This document shows positions 19,786 through 38,779 of a stretch of DNA of 64,000 nt, one piece after another. The first letter of the stretch is position 1, and each line of letters begins with the position of its first letter. The notes beneath the pieces were generated by a model. That model searched no databases. It had not been told where the DNA came from and worked only from the letters and a program-made list of their open reading frames with translations. The position numbers and the translations under genes were made by a program. Location: the NCBI GenBank assembly GCA_950097245.1, contig CATNCS010000002.1, positions 1 through 64,000 on the forward strand, in the 5' to 3' direction. The DNA is from an uncultured Oscillospiraceae bacterium. GTDB lineage: Bacteria > Bacillota > Clostridia > Oscillospirales > Oscillospiraceae.

Positions 19786-19787
19786 GC

Positions 19788-21285
19788 ATGGCGAGGAAAA
19801 GCCGAAAGGACCAGATCAGGGCTGCAAACAGTGGACAAGCCCTGTCTGAGCAGAGGCAGACTGCGGCTCCCGCTGAGAAAACCTATGCTACCGTGGGTTA
19901 CGCCCGCCTGTCCATCCTGGAAACCAGGGATAGGAAGGACAGCGAGGCCCTGCAAAATCAGAAAGCGCTCATTCGGGAATACATTCAGAGCCAGGGCGAC
20001 TTAACGCTGCTTTCCATCTACGAGGACAACGGCGAGACCGGGACGAATTTCCAGCGGCCCGGGTTCGAGGCCATGATGGAGGCCATCTGTGCTGGAAAAG
20101 CCAACTGCATCGTGGTCAAGGACCTGTCCCGTTTTGGTCGGAATTACATTGAGGCCGGCAACTACCTGGAACACGTATTTCCGGCGATGGGCGTCCGCTT
20201 TATCTCCATCGGGGACGGCTACGACAGCGCCGAAAAAATTGGAGGGCGTCAGCAATGCAGGCATTGTCCGCTGGCTGAACAATTCCGGGATTTTGTCCCC
20301 CTGCTACTACCGGTACCAGAAAGGCATCCTGATCGACCAGCGGTTCGCCCAGCCCAAGCCCTGGAAGGTGGAAACGGTAAAGAATATCCTGCGCAGCCAA
20401 GTCTACCTGGGCCATATGGTACAGGGCCGCCGTCGCTCGGAGTTTTACGCCGGGATACCGGACCGGCTCCTGCCGAAGTCGGAATGGACCATTGTGGAGA
20501 ATACCCATGAGGCCATCATCAGCCAAGCAGACTTTGACGCTGTACAATCCATTTGTGATTTGAAACAGAAAGAATACCACGCCAATCTGGGAAAGTACGA
20601 TCACCTGGGAAAGAGCGAAAATATTCTGAAAGGCCTGGTTTACTGCGGCGACTGCGGCCGGCCTATGGTGCGGTATAAGCAGGTGGTCAAAGGGAAAAAG
20701 GTGTCCTACCATTACATGTGTCCCAACTACGCCGCTATGCTGGAGCGGAGCGGCTGCGCCTACAAATTCCTGCGGGAGGATATCCTGCTGGACGCCCTGT
20801 CCCAGCTGATTGGCAAGGAAATCGAGCAGGCGGTGGATACTGTACGACTGGCCAGACATCTCTCCGCTGGAAAAGAGGGACAAATCACCGCCAGAGCGGC
20901 GGAACTCCGGCGGCTGAATCTGGACCTGGAGCGGGCTGAAAACCGAAAAAAGACGGTTATGCAGGATTTTTTGGCCGGAGAGCTGTCCCGCGATGAATAT
21001 GAGCAGCTGAAGATATGCTGTACCGGAGAGGCCGAGCGGTTGAAAAACCGTATTCTGGCACTCCGGGAGGAGCAGCACTGTCAGTCCGAGACGCTGACCG
21101 GGGATAATCCCTGGCTGAAAACCTTTGGAGGTCTCCAACTCCCTGACCGACTGACCAAGGAGCTGGCCCATGGACTGATCCAGCGTATTACGATTTACGA
21201 GAACGACCGAATTGAAGTGATTTTCAAGTATAGGGATGAGCGGGAGCAGCTGCTCACCGCGATTAACAAGGAGGTAGTAGCATGA
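19788..21285 (+). pseudogene. Large serine recombinase 2, internal deletion with frameshift
   Basis: Resolvase domain in frame 19788..20510, recombinase/zinc-ribbon part in frame 20089..21285; junction near 20228-20240. Confidence 0.85.
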
Positions 21286-22895
21286 CGGCGGCAAAATATA
21301 TCCGACTGTCCTCCGCTGACGAGGACATCAGGATGGGCGATAAAGCAGAAAGCAACAGTGTGGTTAACCAGCGAAAGCTGCTGGACTGTTATCTTGAAAG
21401 CCACCGTGAATTTTCCAACTGCACAATTTTGGAGTTTTTGGACGATGGCCGCAGCGGAACCAACCTGGACCGGCCGGGAATGCGCGCCATGCTGGACGCT
21501 GCCCGCCGGCACGAAATCGACTGCATCATTGTGAAGGACTTTTCCCGCTTTGCCAGGGACTACATTGAGTCCGGCCGTTACCTGGAACAGGTTTTCCCGG
21601 CCCTGGGCATCCGGTTCATCTCTGTCAACGATTGTTACGACAGCTATGATTTTCCCTACGGCACCGCTGGCAATATCAATAACGGTCTATTAAACTTGAT
21701 TAACGAAATGTACAGCCGAGACCTATCCCAGAAATCCAAAGCGGCCAAGCGGCTGTACGCCCAGCGGGGCCAGTGTATATCTGCTTATCCGGTCTATGGT
21801 TATCTCAAATCCCCGGAGGACAAACGGACTTGGATTCCCGATCCGGAGGCGTCCCCGGTGGTACAGCGGATGTTCAACTGGTATGCAGAGGGACTCACCT
21901 CCACGGAAATAGCCAAACGGCTGAATGAGGATGGTATCCCTACGCCAGCCCAGCATAAGAGGGCGCTGGGGTCCAAACGTCAGCCGGAACGCACCGATAA
22001 TTTCTGGCGGGCCACTACGATTGGAAAAATCCTGCGGGACGAGCGGTACACCGGCAAGCTGGTGGCACTGAAAACCACACTGAGCGAACTGGGGAACATC
22101 CACTCAGCCAAGGCAATCGAAAAAGATGATTGGGTCATCGTTCCTGGAGCGTTTGAGGCGATTATCTCTCAGGAAATCTTTGACCAGGTACAAGCAAAGC
22201 TTGAAACGGCCAGGCCCACTCGGAAGCTGGGCCCCATGAAACGGAGACTGTTTTCTCGAAAGCTAAGATGCGGCCACTGCGGCGCGGCGTTGATACGCCA
22301 TGAGATTGCACAGGGCGTCTACTACACCTGCGATGGCAGGGCATGGAACGGAACAGATGACTGCAAAAAAATCCGCCTGTTTGAGACAGACCTGATTCAA
22401 GCGGTTCTGGCCTCCATCCGGTTTCAAGCTCAGTTGGCGAAAAAGACAGAGAAGCGCCTTGACCGAAAGGAAAAACAAATCCAGACGGCACAAAATCGTG
22501 CTCAGTCAGCCCAGCAGCGTATTCAGAAACAAATCGCTCAGCTGGAGACACGGAAAGCGGAGGCCTATCTGAGCTATGATTTGGGCGAGGTATCGCAGAG
22601 CGATTACAAAAACCGCTGCAAAAAGATTGATGCCGCCATTATGGAGCAAAAGCGGCAGCTGGACGCCTTGGAACAGGACAGTGGCAGCATTCTCCCTGAT
22701 ATGGATACTGTCAGCTGTGAGCAGATCAACAGCTTGAAACCGCTCAGTAACTTGCGGACCTTGAATCGGGATATGGTTGAGGTGCTGATTCACTCCATTC
22801 AGATCTACAATGGAAATCGGATTGAAATTGCATGGAATTTTAACGAGGACTATATGAAACTTCTTGCGGAGGAGGATACAGCTATGCGGGTATAA
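21282..22895 (+). CDS. Large serine recombinase 3, intact
   Basis: 537 aa; KYIRLSSADED catalytic N-terminus, DFSRFARDYIESGRYLE, zinc-ribbon CGHCGAALIRHE; ATGA overlap with previous. Confidence 0.93.
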   Translation: MTAAKYIRLSSADEDIRMGDKAESNSVVNQRKLLDCYLESHREFSNCTILEFLDDGRSGTNLDRPGMRAMLDAARRHEIDCIIVKDFSRFARDYIESGRYLEQVFPALGIRFISVNDCYDSYDFPYGTAGNINNGLLNLINEMYSRDLSQKSKAAKRLYAQRGQCISAYPVYGYLKSPEDKRTWIPDPEASPVVQRMFNWYAEGLTSTEIAKRLNEDGIPTPAQHKRALGSKRQPERTDNFWRATTIGKILRDERYTGKLVALKTTLSELGNIHSAKAIEKDDWVIVPGAFEAIISQEIFDQVQAKLETARPTRKLGPMKRRLFSRKLRCGHCGAALIRHEIAQGVYYTCDGRAWNGTDDCKKIRLFETDLIQAVLASIRFQAQLAKKTEKRLDRKEKQIQTAQNRAQSAQQRIQKQIAQLETRKAEAYLSYDLGEVSQSDYKNRCKKIDAAIMEQKRQLDALEQDSGSILPDMDTVSCEQINSLKPLSNLRTLNRDMVEVLIHSIQIYNGNRIEIAWNFNEDYMKLLAEEDTAMRV

Positions 22896-23227: not shown

Positions 23228-23623
23228 ATGACAATTCTTGAATCATGTTTGCGGGTAATTGTTCAAGAACACAGCAAAGACTTTACGGAATCTCTTCTCG
23301 CCAGAGACATTGATGCGGAAAAACAGAACTGGGATCATGCCACCATGGCATACAACGCACAGGCCGGAGCGGAATTTCTTTCGATCTATGCGCAGAAGGA
23401 AGGCCTCCAGTATTTATACGCCATCCTTGACGGGCTCAAGAGAAAAGATTACCTCTCCACAATGGCCTACATCTGCATCACGTCTGAATGCAGTTATCGG
23501 CTGCCGCCCTATTGGATTATTCAGCATGCAGTTGACGAAAAATTGCTGGAGGAATATTGTACTTATCTGGAAGAGATGCTGCCCGCTCATATGGATGTAT
23601 TATCTGATGATGGAAAAATTTAA
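23228..23623 (+). CDS. Hypothetical protein
   Basis: 131 aa, RBS AACGGAGGAATATGTT upstream; no family recognised. Confidence 0.6.
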   Translation: MTILESCLRVIVQEHSKDFTESLLARDIDAEKQNWDHATMAYNAQAGAEFLSIYAQKEGLQYLYAILDGLKRKDYLSTMAYICITSECSYRLPPYWIIQHAVDEKLLEEYCTYLEEMLPAHMDVLSDDGKI

Positions 23624-23715: not shown

Positions 23716-25077
23716 ATGAGATTTGATATTCCCCCAAAAGCCCAGTATATCCTCCAGGCGCTCACCGGTGCCGGCTATGAGGCCTATCTGGTGGGCGGCT
23801 GTGTCCGGGACTTGCTCAGGGGCGTGGAGCCCCACGACTGGGATATTTGCACCTCCGCCCGCCCGGAGGAGACGGAACGCTGTTTTGTCGGCCACCGAAT
23901 TATCGAAACTGGGCTGAAGCACGGCACTGTCACTGTTTTGGAGGACGGCGAGCCCTACGAGATCACCACCTACCGCACCGAGGGGCCCTACTCCGACAGC
24001 CGCCGGCCGGATTTTGTGGAGTTTGTCTCCAGCCTGGAGACCGATCTGGCCCGGCGGGACTTTACCATGAACGCCATCGCCATGGGGCTGGACGGCAGTC
24101 TGCGAGACCCCTTCGGCGGGGCGACCGACATTCAGGCTGGCCTGATCCGCTGCGTAGGGGAGCCCGCCTGCCGTTTTCAGGAGGACGGCCTGCGGGTCAT
24201 GCGGGCGCTGCGGTTTGCCGCTGTGCTTGGCTATAAAATCGAGGAGAAGACCGCCCGAGCTATTCATGAAAACCGCCACATGCTGGAGCATGTGGCGGCG
24301 GAGCGGATCAATGTGGAGCTGTGTAAGCTGCTGACCGGGGTGAACGTGGGGGAAATCCTCCGCCAATATCCCGATGTGCTGTGCCAGTTCTGGTCTCAGT
24401 TGGGGCCGCTGGTCACTTTGGAGCAGAACAACCCCTGGCACTGCTGGGGCGGCTGGGAACACACCATCCATGCGGTAGAGGCGGCCCCTGCCGATTTGAT
24501 CCTCAGGCTGACCATGCTCCTCCACGACATCGGCAAGCCTGCCTGTAAGTCAACCGATGAAAAGGGTATTGACCACTTCTACGGTCATCCGGCAGTTAGC
24601 GCAAAGCTGGCCGGTGAAATGCTCCGGAGCCTGAAATTTGACAACAAAACACGGGAGCGGGTGGTGACTCTGGTGGAGTACCACGACGTCCAGATCCCGA
24701 ACCGGGAGCGATCTATCCGCAAATGGCTGGGGTGCCTGGGGCCGGAGGCATTTTTTCAGCTCCTGGAGGTCAAACGGGCGGATGGTATGGGACAGGCTTA
24801 TGATCTGGTGAAGGATCGGCTTGCCGAACTGGAGGAAATGAAGGCGAAAGCGGAAGAGATCGTCGCCCAGGGACAGTGCTTCTCTCTGAAGGATTTGGCT
24901 GTGAATGGCCGGGATGTTATCTCCGCTGGCGTCGCCCCGGGTCCGGAGGTAGGTCGGGTGCTGAACGGACTGCTGGAGCAGGTGCTCGGCGGTGAAATCC
25001 CCAATGAGCGGAAGGCCCTGTTAGAGCGGCTGGCCTTCAGCCGGCTCCAACCGCCTCCAGGCCTCAATGGCCGCTAA
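23716..25077 (+). CDS. cca: CCA tRNA nucleotidyltransferase with HD domain
   Basis: YLVGGCVRDLLRGVEPHDWDICT, RRDFTMNAIAMG, MLLHDIGKP. Confidence 0.93.
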   Translation: MRFDIPPKAQYILQALTGAGYEAYLVGGCVRDLLRGVEPHDWDICTSARPEETERCFVGHRIIETGLKHGTVTVLEDGEPYEITTYRTEGPYSDSRRPDFVEFVSSLETDLARRDFTMNAIAMGLDGSLRDPFGGATDIQAGLIRCVGEPACRFQEDGLRVMRALRFAAVLGYKIEEKTARAIHENRHMLEHVAAERINVELCKLLTGVNVGEILRQYPDVLCQFWSQLGPLVTLEQNNPWHCWGGWEHTIHAVEAAPADLILRLTMLLHDIGKPACKSTDEKGIDHFYGHPAVSAKLAGEMLRSLKFDNKTRERVVTLVEYHDVQIPNRERSIRKWLGCLGPEAFFQLLEVKRADGMGQAYDLVKDRLAELEEMKAKAEEIVAQGQCFSLKDLAVNGRDVISAGVAPGPEVGRVLNGLLEQVLGGEIPNERKALLERLAFSRLQPPPGLNGR

Positions 25078-26898
25078 AAATTCCTTGCCGTACCGCTTGG
25101 CCTTGACCGCGCCGACGCCGGACACCTCCATAAACTCCTCCGTGGTGCGGGGCTTCCGGGCCGCCATATCGCTCAGGGACGCATTGGAGAAAACAATGTA
25201 GGCTGGCACCCCCTGCGTCAGCGCCAGCCTGGTCCGCAGCTCCCGCAGGACGTCAAACAGGCCCTGATCCGCCGTTTGGGCAGGGGTCTGGGCAGAACTC
25301 TGAGCGCCGGCCTCAGGTTTGACCACTTCCTCCTGCTGCTCCGGCCTGCGGAAGGTATAGCAGACCCGCTCTCCATGGAACAGCACCTGCTTTGCCCGCT
25401 CGGCCGTGCGCAGCACCGGATAGTCCGCGCCGTCCAGGCGCAGATAACCCTGCTCAACCAGGAGATCGATATACGTTCTGATCTGCGTCCGGTCCGTCCC
25501 GCTCATCACGCCGTAGGTGGACAGCTTGTCCAGCCCGAGCTGGAGCACCCGCTGGTCCCTGCTGCCCCGAAGCATCCGGACCGTCACGGCCACCCCCAGG
25601 CCAGAGCGGTATTGCCGCTCCACCCGCGTCACGGCGGAGAGAATTTTCTGGGCTTCTATGGTGATATCCCTCTCCTCTAGCACCCCGGCACAGTTTCCGC
25701 AGCTTTCACAGGATTCCGGCGCCTCCTGGCCAAAATAGCGCAGCAAAAAGGCCCGCAGGCAGCCTGTGGTCTTGCAGTAAGCAACCATCCGGTCCAGCCG
25801 GCCCAGATCCCGCAGCCGCAGCCGCTCCCGTTCCACCTCCGGCAGCTCCTCGTTGTCGGAGCTGTGGTCGATGAGAAATTTGGCGGTGCGCACATCCTGC
25901 GCCGAGAACAACAGCGTACAGCGAGCCACCGATCCGTCCCGCCCGGCGCGGCCCGCCTCCTGGTAGTAGCTCTCCAGGTCCTTGGGCATGTTGTAGTGGA
26001 CCACAAAGCTCACATTGGACTTGTCGATCCCCATGCCGAAGGCGTTGGTGGCCACCATAACCCGGACCCGGTCATACTCAAAATCCTCCTGGCTGTTCCG
26101 ACGCTCCTCCTCGGGCAGACCGGCGTGATAGCGGGCGGCAGATACGCCATGCCCCGCCAGCGTGGCGCACACGGCGTCCACCGTCTTGCGGGTGGCGCAG
26201 TAGACGATGCCGCTCTGCCTTGGGCGGCTGTCAATGAATTTTTCTAGCCAGCCATCCTTGCTTTTCGTCCGGACGACCTCGAAGAAAAGGTTGGGCCGGT
26301 CAAAGCCGGTAGTCAGGCACAGCGGGTCCCGCAGCAGCAGGAGCTGCCGGATGTCCTCCTTGACCTGCTCGGTGGCGGTGGCGGTGAAGGCACCCACCGG
26401 TGGGCGGCGGCGGAGGGACTGAATGAACTCCGCGATTTTCAGATAGCTGGGCCGAAAATCCTGTCCCCATTGGGAGACGCAGTGGGCCTCGTCCACCGCC
26501 AGCAGGGAAATCTCCGTCTCCCGGGCAAACTGAAGAAAATTCGGAGCGGCCAGACGCTCCGGCGCAGCGTAAATCAGCTTATAGTCGCCCCGCCGCGCCC
26601 GGCGGAACACCTCCCGATACTGCTCCTGAGACAAAGTGGAGTTGAGATAGGCGGCGGGAATTCCCGCCTGGGTCAGGGACGCGACCTGGTCCTTCATCAG
26701 AGAGATGAGCGGGGATATCACCAGCGCCGTCCCCGGCAGCAGCAGGGCGGGAAGCTGGTAGCAGACCGACTTGCCCGCCCCCGTGGGCATGACCCCCAGC
26801 ACGTCCCGCCCGGACAGCAGAGCGTCTGCCAATTCTTCCTGTCCGAACCGAAATTCGCTGTGCCCAAAATGCTGCTTCAGCGCCTCATATTTATCCAT
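25021..26898 (-). CDS. recQ: ATP-dependent DNA helicase RecQ
   Basis: GVMPTGAGKSVCYQLPALL, VDEAHCVSQWGQDFRPSY, QEAGRAGRDG, RQC cysteines, HRDC C-terminus. Confidence 0.95.
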   Translation of the reverse strand: MDKYEALKQHFGHSEFRFGQEELADALLSGRDVLGVMPTGAGKSVCYQLPALLLPGTALVISPLISLMKDQVASLTQAGIPAAYLNSTLSQEQYREVFRRARRGDYKLIYAAPERLAAPNFLQFARETEISLLAVDEAHCVSQWGQDFRPSYLKIAEFIQSLRRRPPVGAFTATATEQVKEDIRQLLLLRDPLCLTTGFDRPNLFFEVVRTKSKDGWLEKFIDSRPRQSGIVYCATRKTVDAVCATLAGHGVSAARYHAGLPEEERRNSQEDFEYDRVRVMVATNAFGMGIDKSNVSFVVHYNMPKDLESYYQEAGRAGRDGSVARCTLLFSAQDVRTAKFLIDHSSDNEELPEVERERLRLRDLGRLDRMVAYCKTTGCLRAFLLRYFGQEAPESCESCGNCAGVLEERDITIEAQKILSAVTRVERQYRSGLGVAVTVRMLRGSRDQRVLQLGLDKLSTYGVMSGTDRTQIRTYIDLLVEQGYLRLDGADYPVLRTAERAKQVLFHGERVCYTFRRPEQQEEVVKPEAGAQSSAQTPAQTADQGLFDVLRELRTRLALTQGVPAYIVFSNASLSDMAARKPRTTEEFMEVSGVGAVKAKRYGKEFLAAIEAWRRLEPAEGQPL

Positions 26899-27089
26899 AA
26901 GTAGTACCACCTCGCTGCGGCTTTTATAGTGCTATATTTATTCCAGTGTTACAATGAGTTCTTACTCTTTTGCATGTCAATGTATAACGTATAAAGTATA
27001 GAAAATAAGTCCAAAACAACTATGACAGAAGCATGTTTCATCTGCTCCCGTCATAGTTATTTTTATAAACTTTACAAGGAGGGGATTCC

Positions 27090-27389
27090 ATGCGGATATG
27101 GGTTTACGGAGACAGTCCGGCACAGATTCAAAGCATGATAGAAAAAACGGTCCGTTCCGATGACACGGTGGCAGGAACCTCAGTCCGTGCAGAGATCAGT
27201 TCCGCATTTCCCCAGAGCGGTTTAACTCCGGCTATATCTGCCGCGATTCGGGGGGAATTTGACCTGCTGCTCATCCCTGCATTCGGATTTTTAGGGGACA
27301 AAATCAAAGCGGATCAAATGATAGGTCTGTTTCAAGGTTATGGTGTCTTGGTCAGGTCCGTTTCCAGCGATGGGATTAACAGTTCCTGA
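27090..27389 (+). CDS. Small resolvase-N-terminal-like hypothetical protein
   Basis: 99 aa; AAIRGEFDLLLIPAFGFLGDKIKADQMIGLFQGYGVLVRSV resembles serine-resolvase fold segment without catalytic region; RBS AAGGAGGGG. Confidence 0.45.
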   Translation: MRIWVYGDSPAQIQSMIEKTVRSDDTVAGTSVRAEISSAFPQSGLTPAISAAIRGEFDLLLIPAFGFLGDKIKADQMIGLFQGYGVLVRSVSSDGINSS

Positions 27390-28621
27390 TAACCGACTTG
27401 TCCAAATTGTTTCACAGCTTCCGCAGTTTTTTCCAGACATGTCCCAGCACAGCCTTGAAGCAACGACCGGCTGGTTTCGCTCAGCGGCACGTCAGAGCGG
27501 CACAGGCCGTAGTCGTCGGGAGTCATATGCCACGGTTTAAGCAGCTTCGGATACCGGCTGTGCAGCTGCGCCGCGATGGACAGGCCCTTCCCGTCAAAAT
27601 CCCCGGAATAGAACAGCTCCATACCCTCCGACGTCAGAAGGTCCAACAGCCGCAACGCCGCCACCGAGGGCTGGCCAGAGGTGCAGATCAGCGGGGAATG
27701 AAACTGTGCGGAGCGGTCACAGAGCTGGGTGAACACCATCTCATTTTCCACAATGTAGGCCCGTCCTGATAGGCTGCGCGCCCCGGTCAGCCCGGACAGA
27801 CTGGAGAGGGACAGAGTACATATTTCACGGGCCTGGCGGAACAAACGGTAAGCGGGGTGCTCCTCTGCTCCCACATAGAGGACGAGCCCCGTCTGCGTGA
27901 CCAGGCTGGAGATGCTGTCGCATAAGATCCCATTTTCATAGTACAGGCCGTCTCTCTGCTCCGCATTTTCCGGATATTTCTGGTGGGAACTAAAAGCCAG
28001 CAGGTACAAAAACAGCTTGCCGCACAGCGTCCCGCTGTCCAGCGCGTGGGGATCGGAGGTGACCTGGGCGCTGAGCACAGCCAGGCGGACTGCCTCTTGG
28101 GGGCGCTGTTCCAGCCAGTCAAGGCTTCGGCATGCCCGGATCAGACTGCGTTTTGTTCCCTCCAAATCTTTCGCGGCCTCACGGCGGAGCAGTTGATACC
28201 CTCCGCCCTGCGTCTCCTTCAAGGTTTGCAGCCATCGATGGCAGGTATCGCTGTCTGCCTGTTCCGATACCTGTGCGAGCATGGCGGAAAAACGGCTGTT
28301 TTCCCCTTCACGCAGTTCGTTTCTGGTTTTGATCTCCGTGTCGAAGTAGCGCTCCAGCACTTCTTTCAGCGAGACCCCCTGGAAAGAGGTCTGCTGGAGC
28401 GCCGCCTCAAACTGGGCGGTCTGAAACTGAAGCGGCGGGGAAAAGGGGCGGCCAAAGATGCCCCGGGCGGCGTCGCACTCCTCCTGGGTAGCGTCGGCCA
28501 ACCGGACAATGCCCGCCGGGCGGCCAAAGCTGCGGTATTTTTTCAGCAGCTCTGTCATAATGCGACGGTATCCGGGCCGGGATCGAAAATAGGCCGCGCA
28601 GGCCCTGGCCTGTTCGCTCAT
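27338..28621 (-). CDS. jetD: Wadjet JetD-like (TIGR02679/DUF2399-like) toprim-type nuclease subunit
   Basis: Start MSEQARACAAYFRSRPGYRRIMTELLKKYRSFGR; YSGDFDGKGLSIA toprim-like motif; ATGA overlap with jetC. Confidence 0.85.
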   Translation of the reverse strand: MSEQARACAAYFRSRPGYRRIMTELLKKYRSFGRPAGIVRLADATQEECDAARGIFGRPFSPPLQFQTAQFEAALQQTSFQGVSLKEVLERYFDTEIKTRNELREGENSRFSAMLAQVSEQADSDTCHRWLQTLKETQGGGYQLLRREAAKDLEGTKRSLIRACRSLDWLEQRPQEAVRLAVLSAQVTSDPHALDSGTLCGKLFLYLLAFSSHQKYPENAEQRDGLYYENGILCDSISSLVTQTGLVLYVGAEEHPAYRLFRQAREICTLSLSSLSGLTGARSLSGRAYIVENEMVFTQLCDRSAQFHSPLICTSGQPSVAALRLLDLLTSEGMELFYSGDFDGKGLSIAAQLHSRYPKLLKPWHMTPDDYGLCRSDVPLSETSRSLLQGCAGTCLEKTAEAVKQFGQVGYQELLIPSLETDLTKTP

Positions 28622-31600
28622 AGGCTGTCCTCCAGAGTTCGCTGTTTGCCGTTCCAGTGGTAACGCAGGATGGTGACCACCGGGGCGTTGGGCGGGTGGT
28701 GCATCTCGGCGATATCCAGATCGGGTACACAGGCATAGCAGCCCCATAGTGCCTGGGAGTTGATGATGTAGTCGAAGCCCAGAATTCCCATCAGTTCAAA
28801 CATGGCGCTGATATTCTGGTCGTCCACACCGGCAAAGGCCTCGTCCAGGGCCAGAAGCCGGGGACAGGCTTCCCCACCCTTTTGATATTGAGCGGAGACA
28901 GCGGCGAATAAGGGCACATACATGGCCATAGCCTTTTCCCCGCCGCTGAACCGGTTGAACACCCGGTCGGAGAGCTCCTTTTTTCCGTCCTCTCCCCGCT
29001 GGTAAAACAGGCGGAACTCATACCAGCCCCGGTAGTCCAGAACGGAGCGAATCAAATCGGCGTAATTGACCGATATCCCCTGCACATGGGCCTCCTCCCG
29101 GGCACGCTTGACCTTGTTTCGGAAATGGGAAGAGACCTTCTGGCTGTCCTCCGGCGTGAGCAGGGCCCGATCCTTGTTCAGCAGTGTGACCAGATACGCG
29201 GTGTCCAGCTCCCCGTCCCCCTCCGACTTTTTCTCCTTCCAGTCCAGGCTGAAGGTCAGCCCCATGGAGGTGGTCAAGGTAGCCATCAGGGAAGTCATAT
29301 CCCGGACCCACCGGCCGCTCTCCTCGATGCGGGCGCGCAGCTTGTGGCTGATGGTCTCGGTCAGGATATTTTCAAACAGCTCCCGGTCCCGGTCCTCCAG
29401 AATGCTTCCGGTAGAGTCGATGTCGGCCTGGAGGGACTGAATAAAATCGTAGAGGGAGAGCTCCTTTCCACCCTTTTTCAGCAGGATGCACAGGCGCTGC
29501 CGAAGGTGAACGGTGTGGTTGGGAGCCTCAAAAACCAGCCTGATTTCGGGGTGGTAGCTCAAGAGGCTGTTGTTTGACCTCTCATAGTTTCTGCGCAGAG
29601 CGTCCGCCATGTGCTCCGGCGTATAGCCCCGGTCGGCGGGCTGGATTTTACTTGCCGCCTGCCGGGCGCGCTCCTCCAGGTCCGAGGTTTCATCCAGCCC
29701 GGAGAAACCCAGTTCCAGGTCCTCCAGGAAGTAACGCTCTGTGTCCTGTTCCTCCAGAGTGGCATCCAGAAGTTTCTGCTTTCTCTGTTTCAAAGTTTCG
29801 CTGGAAGTTTTCAGTTCTACCTCCAGGGCGGCACACATCTCCCCCGCCTCCCGGTTTTCCCGGTCCTGGCGATCAATCTCATCCTCTAATTCCGCCAGGC
29901 GGCGGGCACGAGCCTGGTTCTCCGGCCGATCCAGATAGGCTTGCAGCTCATCCACGGTCGATTGGCTGACCTGCATCGAACGTCGGACTGCTTCGTTCTC
30001 CTTTCTCCGATCTGACGCAAGGTCCCGCTGCTCGTCGATGGTATCCTGTTCGCTTTCCATGGAGCGGACTGCGTAATCCAGCTTCTGGCGGCTGTGCTCC
30101 AGGTCGTTCAGGGTATCCCGATAGCTGGCGGCGGCCCTCTGGGCCTCCTCATAGTCCGGGATGGTCCGTTCATAGGGCAGGCCGGCGCTGAGGCTGATGC
30201 ATTTTTCTTCCAGCGCGGACCAGGCTTGTTTTGCCGCCTGCTCGGCGGCCAGCTTCTGCTTCTGCTCCTCCTCGGCCTGCCGCAGCTCCCGGCGAGCCTG
30301 CTCCAGCAACGCCAGCGCCTGATCCAGTTCTTCGGCGGCCGGTATCCGGGAGCGTTCCCCCTCCAGCTGCTCCAGCCGTCTGGTATGCTCCGAAACTTCG
30401 GACTGTGCCGCCTGTATTTTTGCGGCCAGCTGTTCCAGCCGTCCCTCCAATTCGCGAATCTGCCGCTGCCGGTTGGCCGCCCGGGCGGCGGCGCCCACAA
30501 ACCCGGCGGGAACTTCGGCGTGACTGCGGCCCCGGATCATACCGCAGCGGAACCGGCCGTCAGGGAGCAGGGCGGTCTCGGCGCTGAGGTCGGCCTGAGA
30601 TATCCCCCGCAGACAGGCGGCGGCCTCGCTGGGAAAACGCCCCGTGGCGTCGGGGACCAGGCCCTGGACCGGCTGCTCCACGGCGAGGCCGGGAAGCAGG
30701 AAGCGGTCCGGGTATTCCTCCAGCAGCTCCTTGACCGCGGGCAGATGCTCCTCCGGGACTACCAAGGCGTCCAGCAGGCCGGCGTCGGCCAACTGAGTCT
30801 CCAGCAGATCCCGCTCCTCTTGAGAGAGCTCGGGCGCAAAGTCCACCAGTTCATAGAAAGGGGCACAGGGAATGCCCCGCAGCATCAGTTGAAGACGGGC
30901 GGCTTGGATTTGTTCCCGTCTGGGTGGGATAGGCTCCGGTTGAGCCTTGAGCTGCTTTAATTCCCGTTCCTGTTCCTTTTGCTCCTCAAGCAAGGTGTTC
31001 AGGACATTTTCCGCCCGCAGAAGCTGTGTCTGAAGGGCTGACTCGCAAATGCGGGTACATTCATTGACCCTGTTCAGGATGGGGCCCCAATCCGCCAAGG
31101 TGCGGTAAATGGTAAGGGCCCGCCGAATCTCCTGCCAGACTTCCTGGGAAATCACCAGCTGGGTATTTTGATCCAGCCAGCGGGTGAAGGCCTCCAACAG
31201 CTTGTCACGCTCCTCCCGCTCCTGGGTCTGGGCATCCCGGAATACGATCTGGGCCTCCCGCACAGAGACACTGGCCTGGTCTGCAGCCTGACAGGCGCTG
31301 TCGTAGATGCCTCTGGCCTCCTGGGCCTTTTGCAGGGCTCGTAAAACATCCTCGATCTGCCGGCTCCGCTGGCGAAGGGCGGCGAGAAGGGGCCGCTGAT
31401 CCCCATTCAGCCGTTCCGCCTGAATATCGCGGACGTAGCAATCGTGTTCTTGTCCTAAAACAAGGAGGTCGTTTTGATCGTTCAATTCACGCAGATGCTG
31501 GCGTGTCCCGGCCCGTGCGTCGTCACAGTCCCGGGTCAAGGTCCGCAGACTGGTCTCCCGCTTGGATATCCCGTCCTCCAGCCTTTGGAGCTGGTCCTCT

Positions 31601-32664
31601 CCCTGCCTCAGCTGGCTTGCCAGCCGGTCACAGCTCTCTTGCGCCTGTTTCAACTGGTCACGCTTGGCGGACAGATCATCGTCCCCCATAGCCGCCCGCT
31701 GGGCCTTTGCCTGCTCCAGCCGGGTGCCCGACTGCCGTCTCCGTTCCGACTGCTCCTCCAGCCGCCGCTCCAGATTGCCACGGAGGCCCTCCGCGTCCCG
31801 CAGCTGATTGCGCAGACGCTGTGTGGTCCCCCGGGCATCCAGATAGGCCTGGCCCTTGCGGCCCAGAATGTACTGGTTGTACCGGTTATATTCGGTCCGG
31901 ATGATCCTGGCGCTCTGCATGGCCGCCTGGTAGCCGTGGAGGGTATCCTCCAGATTGTCCATCTGTTCCATAGTGCTGACCATAGCGGACAAATCGTCAT
32001 CTGTCAGCACCTGAAGGGACAGATTTAAGAGCTTCTTTACCTCTGTTGGACGGAAATCCTTGGACAACTTGGGCGCCCGCACCATGATCAGCAGCTGAAC
32101 CAGCTGGTCATACTGCCGGATATCCTCAAACCTGAAAATCTGGTCGTTGACCATTTCTTTGTATTTTGTAGGACTCTCCGCCCAACAGCTGGGATCATCG
32201 AAAAATTTATGAAGCTTCTGCTTGCTGAGGGGCAGGTTTTGTCCTCCCATTTTTTCGTACAGCTGGAGGCCGCCCGGACCGATCCGCCGTCCGTCCCGGA
32301 GACAGAAGCCCCAGAAGTCGATCCCCTTTCCCCGCTGGGCCCGCATCCCCACGCCGATGGTCCGGTACTCCTCCGTGCCGGGCTTTCGAAACTCCAGATA
32401 CAGATAACCGGTGGACTCCTCCCGTTCGTTGTCGCCCAGCAGGTAGAACTCCATCTTGCGGTCCCGGGAGCCGAAGGGGTCCAGCCGCTCCGGGCGCTTG
32501 TCTCCGTCCAGGATGAAGGGAACAAAGCTCTGGGTGGTGATGGATTTTCCGGCGGCGTTGTTGCCCCGCAGCAGGATATGGCCGTCCTGGAGGGGAAACT
32601 CCTCCTGGTCATACAGCCAGAAATTGAGAAAGCCCAGCTTATTCATCTTCCAGCGGCTCATCAT
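28618..32664 (-). CDS. jetC: Wadjet JetC-like SMC/MukB-type ATPase (TIGR02680-like)
   Basis: Walker A GNNAAGKS, signature FSGGEKAM, Walker B LLALDEAFAGVDD, long coiled coils; ATG at 32664 (or 32661) preceded by GGAGG. Confidence 0.9.
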   Translation of the reverse strand: MMSRWKMNKLGFLNFWLYDQEEFPLQDGHILLRGNNAAGKSITTQSFVPFILDGDKRPERLDPFGSRDRKMEFYLLGDNEREESTGYLYLEFRKPGTEEYRTIGVGMRAQRGKGIDFWGFCLRDGRRIGPGGLQLYEKMGGQNLPLSKQKLHKFFDDPSCWAESPTKYKEMVNDQIFRFEDIRQYDQLVQLLIMVRAPKLSKDFRPTEVKKLLNLSLQVLTDDDLSAMVSTMEQMDNLEDTLHGYQAAMQSARIIRTEYNRYNQYILGRKGQAYLDARGTTQRLRNQLRDAEGLRGNLERRLEEQSERRRQSGTRLEQAKAQRAAMGDDDLSAKRDQLKQAQESCDRLASQLRQGEDQLQRLEDGISKRETSLRTLTRDCDDARAGTRQHLRELNDQNDLLVLGQEHDCYVRDIQAERLNGDQRPLLAALRQRSRQIEDVLRALQKAQEARGIYDSACQAADQASVSVREAQIVFRDAQTQEREERDKLLEAFTRWLDQNTQLVISQEVWQEIRRALTIYRTLADWGPILNRVNECTRICESALQTQLLRAENVLNTLLEEQKEQERELKQLKAQPEPIPPRREQIQAARLQLMLRGIPCAPFYELVDFAPELSQEERDLLETQLADAGLLDALVVPEEHLPAVKELLEEYPDRFLLPGLAVEQPVQGLVPDATGRFPSEAAACLRGISQADLSAETALLPDGRFRCGMIRGRSHAEVPAGFVGAAARAANRQRQIRELEGRLEQLAAKIQAAQSEVSEHTRRLEQLEGERSRIPAAEELDQALALLEQARRELRQAEEEQKQKLAAEQAAKQAWSALEEKCISLSAGLPYERTIPDYEEAQRAAASYRDTLNDLEHSRQKLDYAVRSMESEQDTIDEQRDLASDRRKENEAVRRSMQVSQSTVDELQAYLDRPENQARARRLAELEDEIDRQDRENREAGEMCAALEVELKTSSETLKQRKQKLLDATLEEQDTERYFLEDLELGFSGLDETSDLEERARQAASKIQPADRGYTPEHMADALRRNYERSNNSLLSYHPEIRLVFEAPNHTVHLRQRLCILLKKGGKELSLYDFIQSLQADIDSTGSILEDRDRELFENILTETISHKLRARIEESGRWVRDMTSLMATLTTSMGLTFSLDWKEKKSEGDGELDTAYLVTLLNKDRALLTPEDSQKVSSHFRNKVKRAREEAHVQGISVNYADLIRSVLDYRGWYEFRLFYQRGEDGKKELSDRVFNRFSGGEKAMAMYVPLFAAVSAQYQKGGEACPRLLALDEAFAGVDDQNISAMFELMGILGFDYIINSQALWGCYACVPDLDIAEMHHPPNAPVVTILRYHWNGKQRTLEDSL

Positions 32665-33796
32665 CCCCCACCTCCCCGGGTTCATTTTGATAAGAGGCGG
32701 GGTAATTCCCCACCAGTTTCCCCACAGCCGGATAGAGCAGGATATCTCCGTCCAGCTCCTCCAAAAACATCCAACTGGCCATATAGGCGGTCAGTTCCTG
32801 GCAGATACGTTCCAAGGAACAAGCGCGCAGCTGAGAGCCCCAGCCGTTCCCGCACCGGGCCCGGCATTGTTCGATCTCATGGCAGAATTCCCGGCGGCTG
32901 AGCAGCACGGTGTCGTCCGCCCGGCGGGGGTAGATGCCCTGTACGATCTGCTCCCTCAGCTGGGCACACAGCAGCCGCGCAACATCGGACAGCGCCCGGG
33001 TCCCGGGATAGGTCATCCCGCAGCGCTCCCCCTCGGACAGGAGGAAGAACGCGCCGTTTTTGTAGAGATGAAGCTCCCCATTGAGAAACTGGTCCAGGTT
33101 CCGGCCGACAGCGCCGCGCTGATTTTTGATGTAGTCGTAATCGCTCTGGGTCTGGTCAGAGCAGTAGAGGCCGGGGGCCAGCGCCAGCTGCCGGTAGACC
33201 CGCCGCCGGCGCTGTTCGGTCTCGTCCCCCTCCCAGGAGAAGGCCTCAAAATCCTCAATGGACCGGCACTCCATGATATCCCGGCCAAAGTGCACCGGAA
33301 AATGCCGGGACAGGCCGGTATTTTCATAGAGCACCTCTTGATTCTGGTCACTGCCGAAGAGGGCGCTGTTCCCGTCGTAGACCAGCACCAGGCCTACCTC
33401 CTGGACATACTGGAGGACCCGGACCAGCGACTTGCGGTGGGGAAACCTGGTCCAGTCCACCGGCTGCACCTCACCGAGAAAGGTCTCCACCGCCTGGGTC
33501 AGGGAGGAGAGTAGGAAAGGCGCACCGTCGTCCAGGTCGGCCAGAAACAGCAGAACGGCGCACAGCAGGCAGTAGTCCAGCGGCTCCTGAAAGGACTGGA
33601 TCCCCATCCAGGGCATGGCCCTGGGCGGCACCTTCTCCAGCTTCACCACATATTCGTTGACCACCAGATTCCAGCCCAGCAGCTCGTTGACAAGCCTGCG
33701 GAAGTCAGGCAGAGCCCGTTTCAGACTGAAATAGAGCTCCCGGTCCTCCGCCCGGGTGACCCAGAACCGATCCAGCAGGGCGCGAAATTCATACAT
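32639..33796 (-). CDS. jetB: Wadjet JetB-like protein (TIGR02678-like)
   Basis: MYEFRALLDRFWVTRAEDRELYFSLKRALPDFRRLVNELLGWNLVVN; start 33796 with AGGAGG at 33803-33808. Confidence 0.85.
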   Translation of the reverse strand: MYEFRALLDRFWVTRAEDRELYFSLKRALPDFRRLVNELLGWNLVVNEYVVKLEKVPPRAMPWMGIQSFQEPLDYCLLCAVLLFLADLDDGAPFLLSSLTQAVETFLGEVQPVDWTRFPHRKSLVRVLQYVQEVGLVLVYDGNSALFGSDQNQEVLYENTGLSRHFPVHFGRDIMECRSIEDFEAFSWEGDETEQRRRRVYRQLALAPGLYCSDQTQSDYDYIKNQRGAVGRNLDQFLNGELHLYKNGAFFLLSEGERCGMTYPGTRALSDVARLLCAQLREQIVQGIYPRRADDTVLLSRREFCHEIEQCRARCGNGWGSQLRACSLERICQELTAYMASWMFLEELDGDILLYPAVGKLVGNYPASYQNEPGEVGDDEPLEDE

Positions 33797-35276
33797 GGCC
33801 GGCCTCCTCAAAGATCAGCACGCAGCTTGGCATGGTCAGTACCCCGTCGGTACACCTGAGCCGGCAGGTTTGGTTTCCCCGCTTTTTCAGCGTGTAGGAC
33901 TGGCCGTACTGGGTCTGCCCCCGCTTGTCTGGACTGAGGTTGGCCAGCGCTACCCAGGACAGAAACACCGTGCGCACAGCGGGGGAGACGGGGGTATCCA
34001 GCGCGGCCAGGTCCAGCCTTCCGTCCCGGATATGCCCCATGACCTCCTGCCGTAGGGCCCGCTCCTCCTCCAGAATTTTCTGCCGCTGGGCTGCCTTTTC
34101 GGCGCTCTTGTCCGCAAAGCCGGTGCGGTCCATCCGGGGCTTGTAGGTCCGTGTCCGGGGCACGAGGAGATAGTCCATGGGAGGCTCATCATAGGGACTC
34201 AAGTCAATGCGCTCCGAGTTTCGGATGTGGTCAAAGGAAAAGTGCCGGGCCTGCTGGGCACCAAACACCAGTGCGGAGAGGCGGTGGCCCTCCTCCACCG
34301 TCTGAAATCCGGCGAACAGGGTGAGCAGGTGCCTCAGCTCCGCCTTGTTGCTCACACCCATATTCTCCATCTGTACCAGTAGCGCCGCATTCTGCACCGC
34401 CCTGCGGATGACTTCGTTGGTGACGTTCAGCACCTGTCGGGCGGCGGGATCGCTGCCGGTGAACCAATCGGCCAGCGACTGCCAGACGCCCTGGTTTCGG
34501 ATTTGCAGCTCAGCTCTCCAATTAGATGATTGTTCAGACTGGGGGCGGGGAATCTCCAGCTCACTGCGCTGGACCAGGTCCAGAATATGCGCGGCCTGTT
34601 CCGGAGAAATTTTTTCCAGCTGCGCCCCGATCTGCGCGGCGCTGTGCTGGAGGTCCTGAATAAAATCCTCCAGGTAGCGGACAAGATTCTGTTTATAGAC
34701 AATGAAATCCACCGATCTCATCTGCATTTCCATGCCGGGACCGTAGAACTCCCGGAGGAAATCCTGATGGTTCTGGCTCAGCCGCTGAAAGTCCTCCTGC
34801 AGGTCCTGCCACCAGGCGTTGACCTCCCGGAGGGGCAGGTCGTCCAGCTGTTCCGCCTTGTATAGATCTTCCCGAATACGGCGGAATGGGCTGGCGGAGA
34901 GACCGGCGGTCCGGGTGGACAGATTTTCCAGCGTAATGGTCAGCCGCTCGACCTCAATGGCCGTCTGGGACATCATGTATTGAAACTGCCGGTTTTTGAA
35001 CTCGGCGATGGTACGGGGCTTGCGGGGGTCCTGAATTGGCGTGAGGTTTTTCCACTTGACCAGCTGCTGGAGGTCAAGAGCCAACTGTTCAGGAGTATAT
35101 TGGGCAAACACAGCCTGCTCCCGCAGCAGGATCAGAACCGTGTCCCGGTCCATCTGGTAGTGCATCTTCTGATGTTCCAGATAGAAGATACGCATGATCG
35201 TTCGATAGACCCTGTAGTTATCCGCCGAGAGATATTTCGTCTCTGATACGCTATCTAACAAGTCGGCTTGCAGCAT
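33789..35276 (-). CDS. jetA: Wadjet JetA-like protein (TIGR02677-like)
   Basis: 495 aa; YRVYRTIMRIFYLEHQKMHYQMDRDTVLILLRE; first gene of four-gene overlapping cluster. Confidence 0.85.
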   Translation of the reverse strand: MLQADLLDSVSETKYLSADNYRVYRTIMRIFYLEHQKMHYQMDRDTVLILLREQAVFAQYTPEQLALDLQQLVKWKNLTPIQDPRKPRTIAEFKNRQFQYMMSQTAIEVERLTITLENLSTRTAGLSASPFRRIREDLYKAEQLDDLPLREVNAWWQDLQEDFQRLSQNHQDFLREFYGPGMEMQMRSVDFIVYKQNLVRYLEDFIQDLQHSAAQIGAQLEKISPEQAAHILDLVQRSELEIPRPQSEQSSNWRAELQIRNQGVWQSLADWFTGSDPAARQVLNVTNEVIRRAVQNAALLVQMENMGVSNKAELRHLLTLFAGFQTVEEGHRLSALVFGAQQARHFSFDHIRNSERIDLSPYDEPPMDYLLVPRTRTYKPRMDRTGFADKSAEKAAQRQKILEEERALRQEVMGHIRDGRLDLAALDTPVSPAVRTVFLSWVALANLSPDKRGQTQYGQSYTLKKRGNQTCRLRCTDGVLTMPSCVLIFEEAGHV

Positions 35277-35516
35277 AATCCACCTGCCTTTTACGTTCCA
35301 ATTCGTTCTTTCGACTTAATTGTACTATATCTGCTTGGATATTACAATCATATATTCCATTTTCCACTTCATATAGTTTGATGGAGGCGATTTTAATGAA
35401 AAGCCCGGTCTTAATTATAAGTGAATCCCATCTGCCGCTGCGTAAGTTCGATGTTAAGAAAATTCATGGGGTTGTCACAGCTTGGCTGACAGGAAAGATG
35501 CAAAAATGATGAAAAA

Positions 35517-35539
35517 CGGGACAACACTGTGTTGTCCCG
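35517..35539 (-). terminator. Terminator of the toxin-antitoxin unit
   Basis: CGGGACAACAC t GTGTTGTCCCG, followed on minus strand by TTTTTCATCATTTTTG. Confidence 0.7.
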
Positions 35540-35552
35540 CCGATGATTCCAG

Positions 35553-35882
35553 TTATAAATTGTGATCTTGAATCCTTTTATGAGCAATATGGTAAACCTC
35601 GTCATCTTTGCGCACACCAATCACAATCAGCACCATATAGCCCTTTTCACGGATAAGCTGATAGACCATGCGCAATTCGGCACCGCACAGCTTGACCTTG
35701 AGGAATCCGGTCAGTTGTGTATTGTCTTTGTTTCCCAGTCGTTTTCCATATCCTTCCTCTGTATCTGGCAGAGAATTCGTTCTTACTTTTTCGACGGCTT
35801 TTTTGACTAAAATTCTCTGCCTCCCATCCAAAGCCCGAAAATCATCCAGGACCTCGGGCAAATATCTGACTTCCCATTTCAT
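35553..35882 (-). CDS. RelE/ParE-family type II toxin
   Basis: 109 aa; MKWEVRYLPEVLDDFRALDGRQRILVKKAVEKV...LRMVYQLIREKGYMVLIVIGVRKDDEVYHIAHKR. Confidence 0.88.
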   Translation of the reverse strand: MKWEVRYLPEVLDDFRALDGRQRILVKKAVEKVRTNSLPDTEEGYGKRLGNKDNTQLTGFLKVKLCGAELRMVYQLIREKGYMVLIVIGVRKDDEVYHIAHKRIQDHNL

Positions 35883-36202
35883 TCAAACTCCACCTCGGAT
35901 ATGTCAGCATAGTCTGCAGAAGAAAGCCCCAGGGCCTCATCAATTTGACGGTCAGAGAGCAGCCTGGCGGGGTCAAAATGAGACATCCGTGCGGATGCCT
36001 CCGCCAGCAGGCGGGCGTCGTTTACCTCGTCCATGAGGCGTACATATTCCTCCGGAGACATAAGGACACACTCAGCGCTGTTGTTTTTCATCACGACTTT
36101 TGCACCATAACGCTTGACATCTTCAAAGATTCTGCCGGCGAGACCTTTATTAAACAGAGAAATAGAAACAGTATTTTCAATTGCTCCACGAATTGCATCC
36201 AT
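35879..36202 (-). CDS. Phd/RelB-like antitoxin
   Basis: MDAIRGAIENTVSISLFNKGLAGRIFEDVKRYGAKVVMKNNSAECVLMSPEEYVRL; overlaps toxin start. Confidence 0.85.
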   Translation of the reverse strand: MDAIRGAIENTVSISLFNKGLAGRIFEDVKRYGAKVVMKNNSAECVLMSPEEYVRLMDEVNDARLLAEASARMSHFDPARLLSDRQIDEALGLSSADYADISEVEFE

Positions 36203-36310
36203 TTTGTTTACGCTCCTTTGTAGTATTATTATACGTGCAAGCAGCAAATATATCAATAAATTTGCCAATATATTTACTGCTTCATATTATTTTATTTACG
36301 CTTCATATGA

Positions 36311-36350
36311 TTTAAATGCCTTTGCCGTTGTATCGGCAAAGGCATTTAAA
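36311..36350. repeat. Perfect 17-bp inverted repeat in divergent TA/recombinase intergenic region
   Basis: TTTAAATGCCTTTGCCG-ttgtat-CGGCAAAGGCATTTAAA. Confidence 0.8.
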
Positions 36351-36424
36351 ATAATTTCTTGCCATGCAGCTGCTCATAGGGTATGATGATACCGAGCAGT
36401 TACGCCTTGAAGGAGGTGTAACAA

Positions 36425-37963
36425 ATCCTTTGTGCGATCTATACACGACTGAGCAAGGAGGAGGTCGACAAGCAACAGCCCGAATCCGAGAGCATCCAGA
36501 ACCAGAAATCCCTACTGACCCGCTATGCCATCGACCACGGGTGGGACATCTACTCGATTTTCTGCGATGAGGACTACTCCGGAGTAGACAGCCAGCGCCC
36601 CGACTTCAACCGCATGATCGAGGCCGCCAAGCAGAAGAAATTCCAGATTATTCTCTGCAAATCTCAATCCCGCTTTACCCGGGACATGGAACTGGTGGAG
36701 AAGTACATCCACGGCCTGTTTCCCATCTGGGGCATCCGGTTCATCGCGGTGGCGGACAACGCCGACACGGAGGTCAAGGGCAACAAGAAGGCCCGGCAGA
36801 TCAACGGCCTGGTGAACGAGTGGTACCTAGAGGACCTGTCGGAAAACGTCCGCATGGTGTTCGACCTGAAGCGGAAAGAGGGTAAATATATCGGCGGTTT
36901 CCCCATCTACGGCTACCGCAAGGACCCGGCAGACAAAAACCACATCATCCCAGACCCGGAGGCGGCGGAGGTGGTCCGCCAAATTTACCAGTGGTCGCTG
37001 GAGGGCCACGGCCGCCAGAACATCGCCTATCTGCTGAACCAGCGAGGCATTCCCAATCCCACCCGCTACAAGGTGGAGCGGGGCTGGACCTGTAACCACC
37101 CCGTCAAGAACGACTTCGGCCTGTGGAACAAGGTGACGGTAGGCCGGATTTTGTCAAACGAGATGTACACCGGTGTCATGATCCAGGGCCGGCGGCGCAA
37201 GGTCAGCTACAAGTCCAAGGTGGTCATCGACACGCCGGAGAGTGAGTGGTATCGGGTGGAGGGAACCCACGAGGCTATCATCGACCGGGCGACTTTCGAG
37301 GCAGTCCAACGGGGGCTGAGGCTGCGCTCCAGGACAGACGGCTCCGGGGAGGTCCATCTGCTGTCCGGGCTGGTGAAATGCGCCGACTGCGGTTCCACCA
37401 TGAGCAAGTGCTCCAACGGCAAGCGTGCCTATCTGCGGTGCAAGCTGTACGCCGACAGCGGCAAGGAAAAGCTGTGCACCCGGCACTCTGTGCGGCTGGA
37501 TCAGCTCATCGACCTGATCTCCGACCGCATCCGGTACTACGTCCAGACCTACTACCAGCTGGACCCGGCGGACCTCCAGCCCCGGAAAGACATCCGCCGG
37601 GAGGGGCTGGAGCAGGAACAAAAGGTCCTGGCCGCACAGCTGGAGAAGCGCAGTCAGGCCCTGAAAACGCTGTACCTGGATCGGGTGGCGGGCATCCTCA
37701 GCGAGGGACAGTTTGTGGAGCTGAACCAGTCCTTCCTGGAAGAAAAAAGCCGCCTGGAACGGCGGCTTCAATCTATCAAGGAGGAGCTGGCGGAGCGGGA
37801 ACAGCCCCAGCAGCAGGCGGACCTGATGGAGCGGGCCCGGGAGCTTCTAAAGCTGGAGACCGTCCCCCGGGAGCTGGTGGTGGGACTGGTGGAAAAAATC
37901 GAGGTCTGCGAGCGGGACCCGGTTACCGGCCGGCAGGAGATCAAGGTGACCTGGAAGTTTTAG
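36425..37963 (+). CDS. Serine recombinase family protein with non-canonical start (ATC at best RBS spacing)
   Basis: Open frame CAIYTRLSKEEVDKQQPESESIQNQKSLLTRYAIDHGW upstream of first ATG (36614); RBS AAGGAGGTG at 36410-36418; no in-frame ATG/GTG/TTG between stop 36419 and 36614. Confidence 0.75.
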   Translation: MLCAIYTRLSKEEVDKQQPESESIQNQKSLLTRYAIDHGWDIYSIFCDEDYSGVDSQRPDFNRMIEAAKQKKFQIILCKSQSRFTRDMELVEKYIHGLFPIWGIRFIAVADNADTEVKGNKKARQINGLVNEWYLEDLSENVRMVFDLKRKEGKYIGGFPIYGYRKDPADKNHIIPDPEAAEVVRQIYQWSLEGHGRQNIAYLLNQRGIPNPTRYKVERGWTCNHPVKNDFGLWNKVTVGRILSNEMYTGVMIQGRRRKVSYKSKVVIDTPESEWYRVEGTHEAIIDRATFEAVQRGLRLRSRTDGSGEVHLLSGLVKCADCGSTMSKCSNGKRAYLRCKLYADSGKEKLCTRHSVRLDQLIDLISDRIRYYVQTYYQLDPADLQPRKDIRREGLEQEQKVLAAQLEKRSQALKTLYLDRVAGILSEGQFVELNQSFLEEKSRLERRLQSIKEELAEREQPQQQADLMERARELLKLETVPRELVVGLVEKIEVCERDPVTGRQEIKVTWKF

Positions 37964-37966
37964 GCG

Positions 37967-38779
37967 TCAAGCTCCCCCCTTGGCCGCCCGGACAATATCG
38001 CCCACCCCGTCCAGCACCATAGACGGGCGGTAGGAGAAGGTTTTCAGCGTCTCCGGGGTGGAGATGCCCGACAGGACCAGAACGGTGGACATACCGCTCT
38101 CCAGACCGGAGATCACATCGGTGTCCATCCGGTCGCCCACCATCACCGCGTCCTCGGAGTGGCACTTGAGCAGGCGCAGGCCGGTGCGCATCATCAGGGG
38201 ATTGGGCTTGCCGCAGAAGTAGGCCTTCGTCCCGGTGGCCATCTCGATGGGGGCCACCAGGGCGCCGCAGGCGGGGACGGTGATCTCCTCCCCCGGGGCG
38301 GAGACGTCGGAGTTGGCCCCGATGAGCTTGGCCCCCTTCAGCACCAGGTTGATGGCCTTGGTGATGGTGTTCAGGGAGTAGTTCTGGCTTTCGCCGATGA
38401 CCACGTAGTCGGGGTCGATATCGTTCATGGTGATGTCCGCGTCGTACAGGGCGTTGAGCAGCCCGGCCTCCCCCAGGGCGTAGACCGAGCAGCCGGGGGC
38501 CTGGCTCTTCAAAAAGGCCGCCGTGGCCAGGGCGCTGGTGTAAAAGTGCTCCTCGGGCACGTCCAGCCCCATGCGGGCCAGCTTCTGCTGGAGCTCCCTG
38601 GGGGTGGAGCCGCTGTTGTTGGTCAAAAAGAGGTAGGACTTCTTCTCCTCATTGAGCCACCGGATGAACTCCTGAACTCCAGGCAGGACCTGATTGCCGT
38701 GGTAGATGACGCCGTCCATGTCGCAGATAAAGCCCTTTTTCTTCTGAAAATCAATGGAATACATACTTGTTTTCCTCAT
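37967..38779 (-). CDS. HAD-IIA family hydrolase (NagD-like)
   Basis: KGFICDMDGVIYHGNQVLPGVQEFIRWL, VMVGDRMDTDVISGLESG. Confidence 0.92.
   Translation of the reverse strand: MRKTSMYSIDFQKKKGFICDMDGVIYHGNQVLPGVQEFIRWLNEEKKSYLFLTNNSGSTPRELQQKLARMGLDVPEEHFYTSALATAAFLKSQAPGCSVYALGEAGLLNALYDADITMNDIDPDYVVIGESQNYSLNTITKAINLVLKGAKLIGANSDVSAPGEEITVPACGALVAPIEMATGTKAYFCGKPNPLMMRTGLRLLKCHSEDAVMVGDRMDTDVISGLESGMSTVLVLSGISTPETLKTFSYRPSMVLDGVGDIVRAAKGGA

Follow-up and report, generated by a model that had tools for sequence, protein, structure and literature searches.

An intact-looking type II Wadjet operon in an uncultured Oscillospiraceae bacterium and a conserved convergent gene for a catalytically dead serine-recombinase domain

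Bacterial Wadjet systems are known for cleaving small circular plasmids. In the published account, JetABC acts as a DNA loop extruder and JetD as a nuclease for circular DNA of less than roughly 50–100 kb (PMC10586767; PMC12287153). Type II Wadjet is much less studied than type I, as stated in a 2023 review (PMC10586767). The locus described here adds one more clean member to this little-studied subtype, and its new point is an undescribed fifth gene. We found no such gene described in open-licence PMC papers on Wadjet with a resolvase, resolvase-like or recombinase gene, which is weak evidence of novelty.

The analysed DNA, hereafter the window, is a stretch of 64,000 nucleotides. Loci used for comparison carry L numbers and genomes G numbers. 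The core of the locus consists of four genes:

33789..35276, minus strand: jetA, type II kleisin (DUF2397, TIGR02677); PADLOC JetA2 549.6 bits; TIGR02677 260 bits, cut-off 166; PDB 9qe0_E JetA, E 7.5e-61
32639..33796, minus strand: jetB, type II KITE protein (DUF2398, TIGR02678); PADLOC JetB2 437.7 bits; TIGR02678 172 bits, cut-off 125; junction read
28618..32664, minus strand: jetC, type II SMC ATPase (TIGR02680); PADLOC JetC2 1336 bits; TIGR02680 743 bits, cut-off 463; PDB 9qe0_A JetC, full-length
27338..28621, minus strand: jetD, type II toprim nuclease (DUF3323 and DUF2399, TIGR02679); PADLOC JetD2 430 bits; TIGR02679 228 bits, cut-off 196

The initial annotation had described four co-directional minus-strand genes at 27338-35276 as a Wadjet-type system in the order TIGR02677/02678/02680/02679, leaving the subtype open. 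The ORFs lie at these positions, and all four proteins matched the NCBIfam families TIGR02677, TIGR02678, TIGR02680 and TIGR02679, in the expected order and above the curated cut-offs. The best PADLOC models were JetA2, JetB2, JetC2 and JetD2, no E-value being weaker than 1e-129, and the type I models JetC1 and JetD1 scored far lower. A chance match of jetA-D is excluded by these HMM scores. Both libraries place the four proteins in Wadjet, and the subtype is therefore assigned as type II. The tight overlaps claimed for the genes were read directly at each junction: the jetA stop lies within the jetB start (ATGTATGA, 33796-33789), jetB and jetC overlap by 26 bp (jetC ATG at 32664, jetB stop at 32639), and jetC and jetD share an ATGA (28621-28618). 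The start of jetD is at 28621, as against 28747 for the longer ORF of the mechanical ORF list. The four genes form a single co-directional overlapping operon, whose order is the same in L039, L040, L042 and L055.

The motifs previously reported for JetC and JetD are all present in the translations. JetC carries GNNAAGKS (Walker A), FSGGEK (signature) and LLALDEAFAGVDD (Walker B), matches the Pfam SbcC_Walker_B family and aligns over its whole length to the solved chain 9qe0_A, named JetC. JetD carries YSGDFDGKG, and its toprim residues Glu292, Asp341 and Asp343 are intact; all three are kept without exception in ten type II JetD proteins whose identity falls as low as 32%. The two observations named beforehand as refuting the annotation, failure of the HMMs and loss of JetD catalytic residues, were thus both looked for and not seen. 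A sequence search of JetD against the PDB gave no match at the search thresholds. The AlphaFold model of JetD (pLDDT 89, pTM 0.50, with an uncertain domain arrangement) was compared with known folds, a check that had been proposed with the annotation; its only significant matches are Pseudomonas aeruginosa JetD (7til), the Corynebacterium glutamicum nuclease 8b7f, topoisomerase VI A and Spo11. Judged by its sequence, jetABCD is a type II Wadjet operon that is complete and looks intact, and the four-gene core by itself is an ordinary further member of a known system. By analogy with characterised Wadjets, JetA, JetB and JetC would assemble into a complex that extrudes loops and detects small circular DNA, which the toprim nuclease JetD would cut. 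From this analogy we infer an anti-plasmid activity of the window operon.

The description as a complete four-gene system holds for jetABCD, all present, but in this gut-bacterial lineage it missed a fifth conserved gene, convergent with jetD. Two further features of the locus are:

27090..27389, plus strand: fifth gene, 99 aa, shortened and catalytically dead serine-recombinase catalytic domain, identified from homologues beside jetD, dN/dS, a structure model and hhalign
27017..27059, strand not assigned: conserved stem-loop with T-rich sequence on either strand, in the interval between the divergent recQ and the fifth gene, immediately 5' of the latter

DNA homology with the closest relatives begins near 27003-27015, beyond the jetD stop, and the extra stretch contains the 99-aa ORF, which overlaps the 3' end of jetD by 52 bp. 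This overlap, together with a conserved stem-loop beyond the ORF that could be the jet operon terminator, might suggest that the ORF is an artefact, the 3' untranslated region of jetD read in antisense. Several observations make such a reading highly improbable. Homologues occur at the same place and in the same orientation in L038, L039, L040, L041, L042, L043, L055 and L070/L090, and the 99-aa frame is the only one open in all eight homologues compared, the other frames containing stops. Third-position changes dominate, and, for pairs in which dS is estimable, dN/dS is about 0.1-0.4 outside the jetD overlap. A Shine-Dalgarno sequence is well placed in most homologues, and the protein is homologous to a known fold, as described below. 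The fifth gene is a real, selected protein-coding gene.

Strong hairpins are found at the stem-loop site in six loci, within a conserved block, with 89% of pair cells paired. The candidate of a covarying regulatory RNA was unsupported: the pairing is conserved, and covariation does not exceed that of shuffles. The element could be a terminator of the jet transcript or a leader element of the fifth gene.

At threshold, the 99-aa protein of the window had no family match in Pfam, NCBIfam, PHROGs or PADLOC; one member of its family touched PF00239 at E 0.017. Its sequence found nothing in the PDB, nor did tblastn in plasmid and phage records. Its structure model is confident (pLDDT 85). The best PDB fold matches obtained with Foldseek are the serine-recombinase catalytic domains 3g13 and 6dgc (probability 1.00, TMq 0.72-0.75, E about 2e-3), and the best matches in a viral library are resolvases and integrases (E 4e-4). 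A profile of the fifth protein aligned by hhalign with resolvase catalytic domains over 92 columns (probability 97, E 9.8e-11). The YxRxS and DRLGR positions, which hold the catalytic serine and arginines, are kept in none of the eight members. The protein ends at 99 aa, with neither a DNA-binding domain nor the long dimerisation helix, which is absent from the model. Its sequence, fold model and pattern of selection together show a serine-recombinase domain that has been shortened and is catalytically dead; given the lost catalytic residues and the shortening, recombinase activity is not expected of it.

Beyond the Wadjet-linked homologues, its closest relatives are free-standing proteins of about 130 aa encoded beside tandem large serine recombinases (L071, L072, L073). 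In these the catalytic serine is already gone but the DRLGRD-type arginines remain, whereas the shorter proteins of the Wadjet-linked family retain neither. The fifth gene was most likely domesticated from such a small, inactive resolvase-like protein encoded in a cassette of tandem large serine recombinases. Since the fold is recombinase-like but stripped of catalytic residues, and the gene accompanies a system directed at circular DNA, the protein might instead bind or mimic the serine recombinases that integrative elements bring in, leaving the circular forms of these elements open to attack by JetABCD. We consider this improbable for a protein devoid of the DNA-binding domain and of the long recombinase dimerisation helix, whose absence counts against a classic dominant-negative mechanism. 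We prefer the reading in which domestication made it an accessory factor or regulator of Wadjet.

The interval between the HAD-phosphatase gene and cca is about 420 bp in G035, a genome of the same genus (L029, L054), versus 12.9 kb in the window (25077-37967), where it holds recQ, Wadjet, a toxin-antitoxin-like pair and a recombinase gene. The genes recQ, Wadjet and recombinase therefore occupy a variable site. At L040, from another genus, jetA directly adjoins the same HAD gene. In the window, jetA is separated from it by a RelE-like toxin and Phd/YefM-like antitoxin pair (35553-36268, minus strand, just upstream of jetA; weak matches) and by a large serine recombinase gene (36425-37963, plus strand). 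The full-length frame of this recombinase, including the YTRLS catalytic motif, has no ATG, GTG or TTG start. An AAGGAGG Shine-Dalgarno sequence lies 8 bases before an ATC codon, the same sequence being kept in G005 (L045), and it is possible that the gene uses a natural ATC start.

Other genes of the surroundings deserve mention. Tandem large serine recombinases are encoded at about 19780-22895 (plus strand) of the window; in the upstream one (about 19780-21285) the N-terminal resolvase part is in a different frame from the C-terminal part, and the gene is probably frameshifted. A 131-aa ORF of no known family (23228-23623, plus strand) has counterparts in L038 (6907-7308, minus strand) and L043 (1248-1760, minus strand). 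In both of these it immediately precedes the fifth gene, broken by stops in L043; in the window cca and recQ intervene. At L070 (7365-17636, genome G185), the fifth gene and the Wadjet operon come immediately after the BREX genes brxC-pglX-pglZ, two defence systems adjoining each other. That the fifth gene is part of a recombinase cassette in the Wadjet loci was considered and rejected, as no large serine recombinase was found in the flanks of L038-L044 or L055.

As an unbiased test of association, 301 genomes of the family were searched with a profile of the small protein. All four strong matches (81-169 bits) directly adjoin jetD. Five weak matches (20-27 bits) belong to recombinases or to proteins encoded beside them, and the stretches inspected for these hold no jet gene. 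Seven of the 301 genomes have a complete type II JetA, three with the fifth gene and four without (G272, G308, G276, G151); the fourth strong match is in G118, whose contig (L043, from the same family as the window) begins inside jetD and which falls outside these seven. Random placement of the four matches in the eight jet-bearing genomes among 301 has a probability near 2e-7, a value that ignores relatedness and does not count adjacency. No further strong match to the fifth gene was found in order-wide and class-wide genome samples. When its presence is plotted on a JetB+C tree, the gene goes back to the base of the Oscillospiraceae group and has two inferred losses (L086 and the L087-L089 clade). 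Its pairwise identities track those of JetB+C (r = 0.89), and it evolves faster than JetB-D. More distant type II loci also lack it (L044, L056, L094, L095). Because four of the seven family genomes with a complete type II Wadjet and these distant loci do without it, the fifth gene is not essential to the Wadjet system. We conclude that it is a lineage-specific accessory and not a universal part of type II Wadjet.

The losses on the tree, at least two and without loss of Wadjet, would also fit an ordinary four-gene type II Wadjet in which the 99-aa gene is a passenger, left by the mobile element that spread the cassette and with no Wadjet role; a rival version gives this passenger a benefit of its own. 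The membership of its relatives in recombinase cassettes and its convergent orientation point the same way, and its position outside the operon and its evolution faster than that of JetB-D likewise count against an accessory function. We nevertheless regard the passenger explanation as the less likely one, in view of the purifying selection on the gene, its co-inheritance across loci with no recombinase in their flanks, and the location of every strong match in the 301 genomes next to jetD.

We therefore favor, with a probability of roughly 0.7 for the explanation as a whole, a complete type II Wadjet plus a fifth gene that encodes a dead serine-recombinase domain, was most likely domesticated and would be retained in an accessory or regulatory role. 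For the role taken separately, we infer an accessory or regulatory function of the fifth protein at the Wadjet locus from the association, at odds close to even. A selected, enzymatically inactive protein of the recombinase superfamily beside a nuclease gene suggests a regulator of a DNA-cutting enzyme that could harm its own host; alternatively, it could mean a partner linking anti-plasmid defence to the site-specific recombination of mobile elements. More tentatively, and with somewhat less than even chances, the 99-aa protein might be a dedicated fifth component of this type II lineage, a subunit or regulator that, for example, controls JetD or links cleavage to mobile-element recombination intermediates.

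Compared with known systems, the locus resembles type II Wadjet (JetABCD) in its four proteins, their gene order, overlaps and motifs, and in the full-length matches to the JetC and JetA chains of 9qe0. It differs from the type II models of PADLOC and NCBIfam by the extra conserved convergent gene beside jetD, which those models do not include. With type I Wadjet (P. aeruginosa JetD, 7til) and with topoisomerase VI A and Spo11, the JetD of the window shares the fold of its model and the conserved acidic toprim residues, whereas its sequence has no PDB match and the type I HMMs score far lower. The fifth protein, finally, is like the serine-recombinase catalytic domain (PF00239), and especially the small resolvase-like proteins of L071-L073, in its fold and in a sequence alignable over 92 columns. 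Unlike the latter, the Wadjet-linked protein is shorter, has lost both the catalytic serine and arginine, and is encoded beside jetD instead of beside recombinases.
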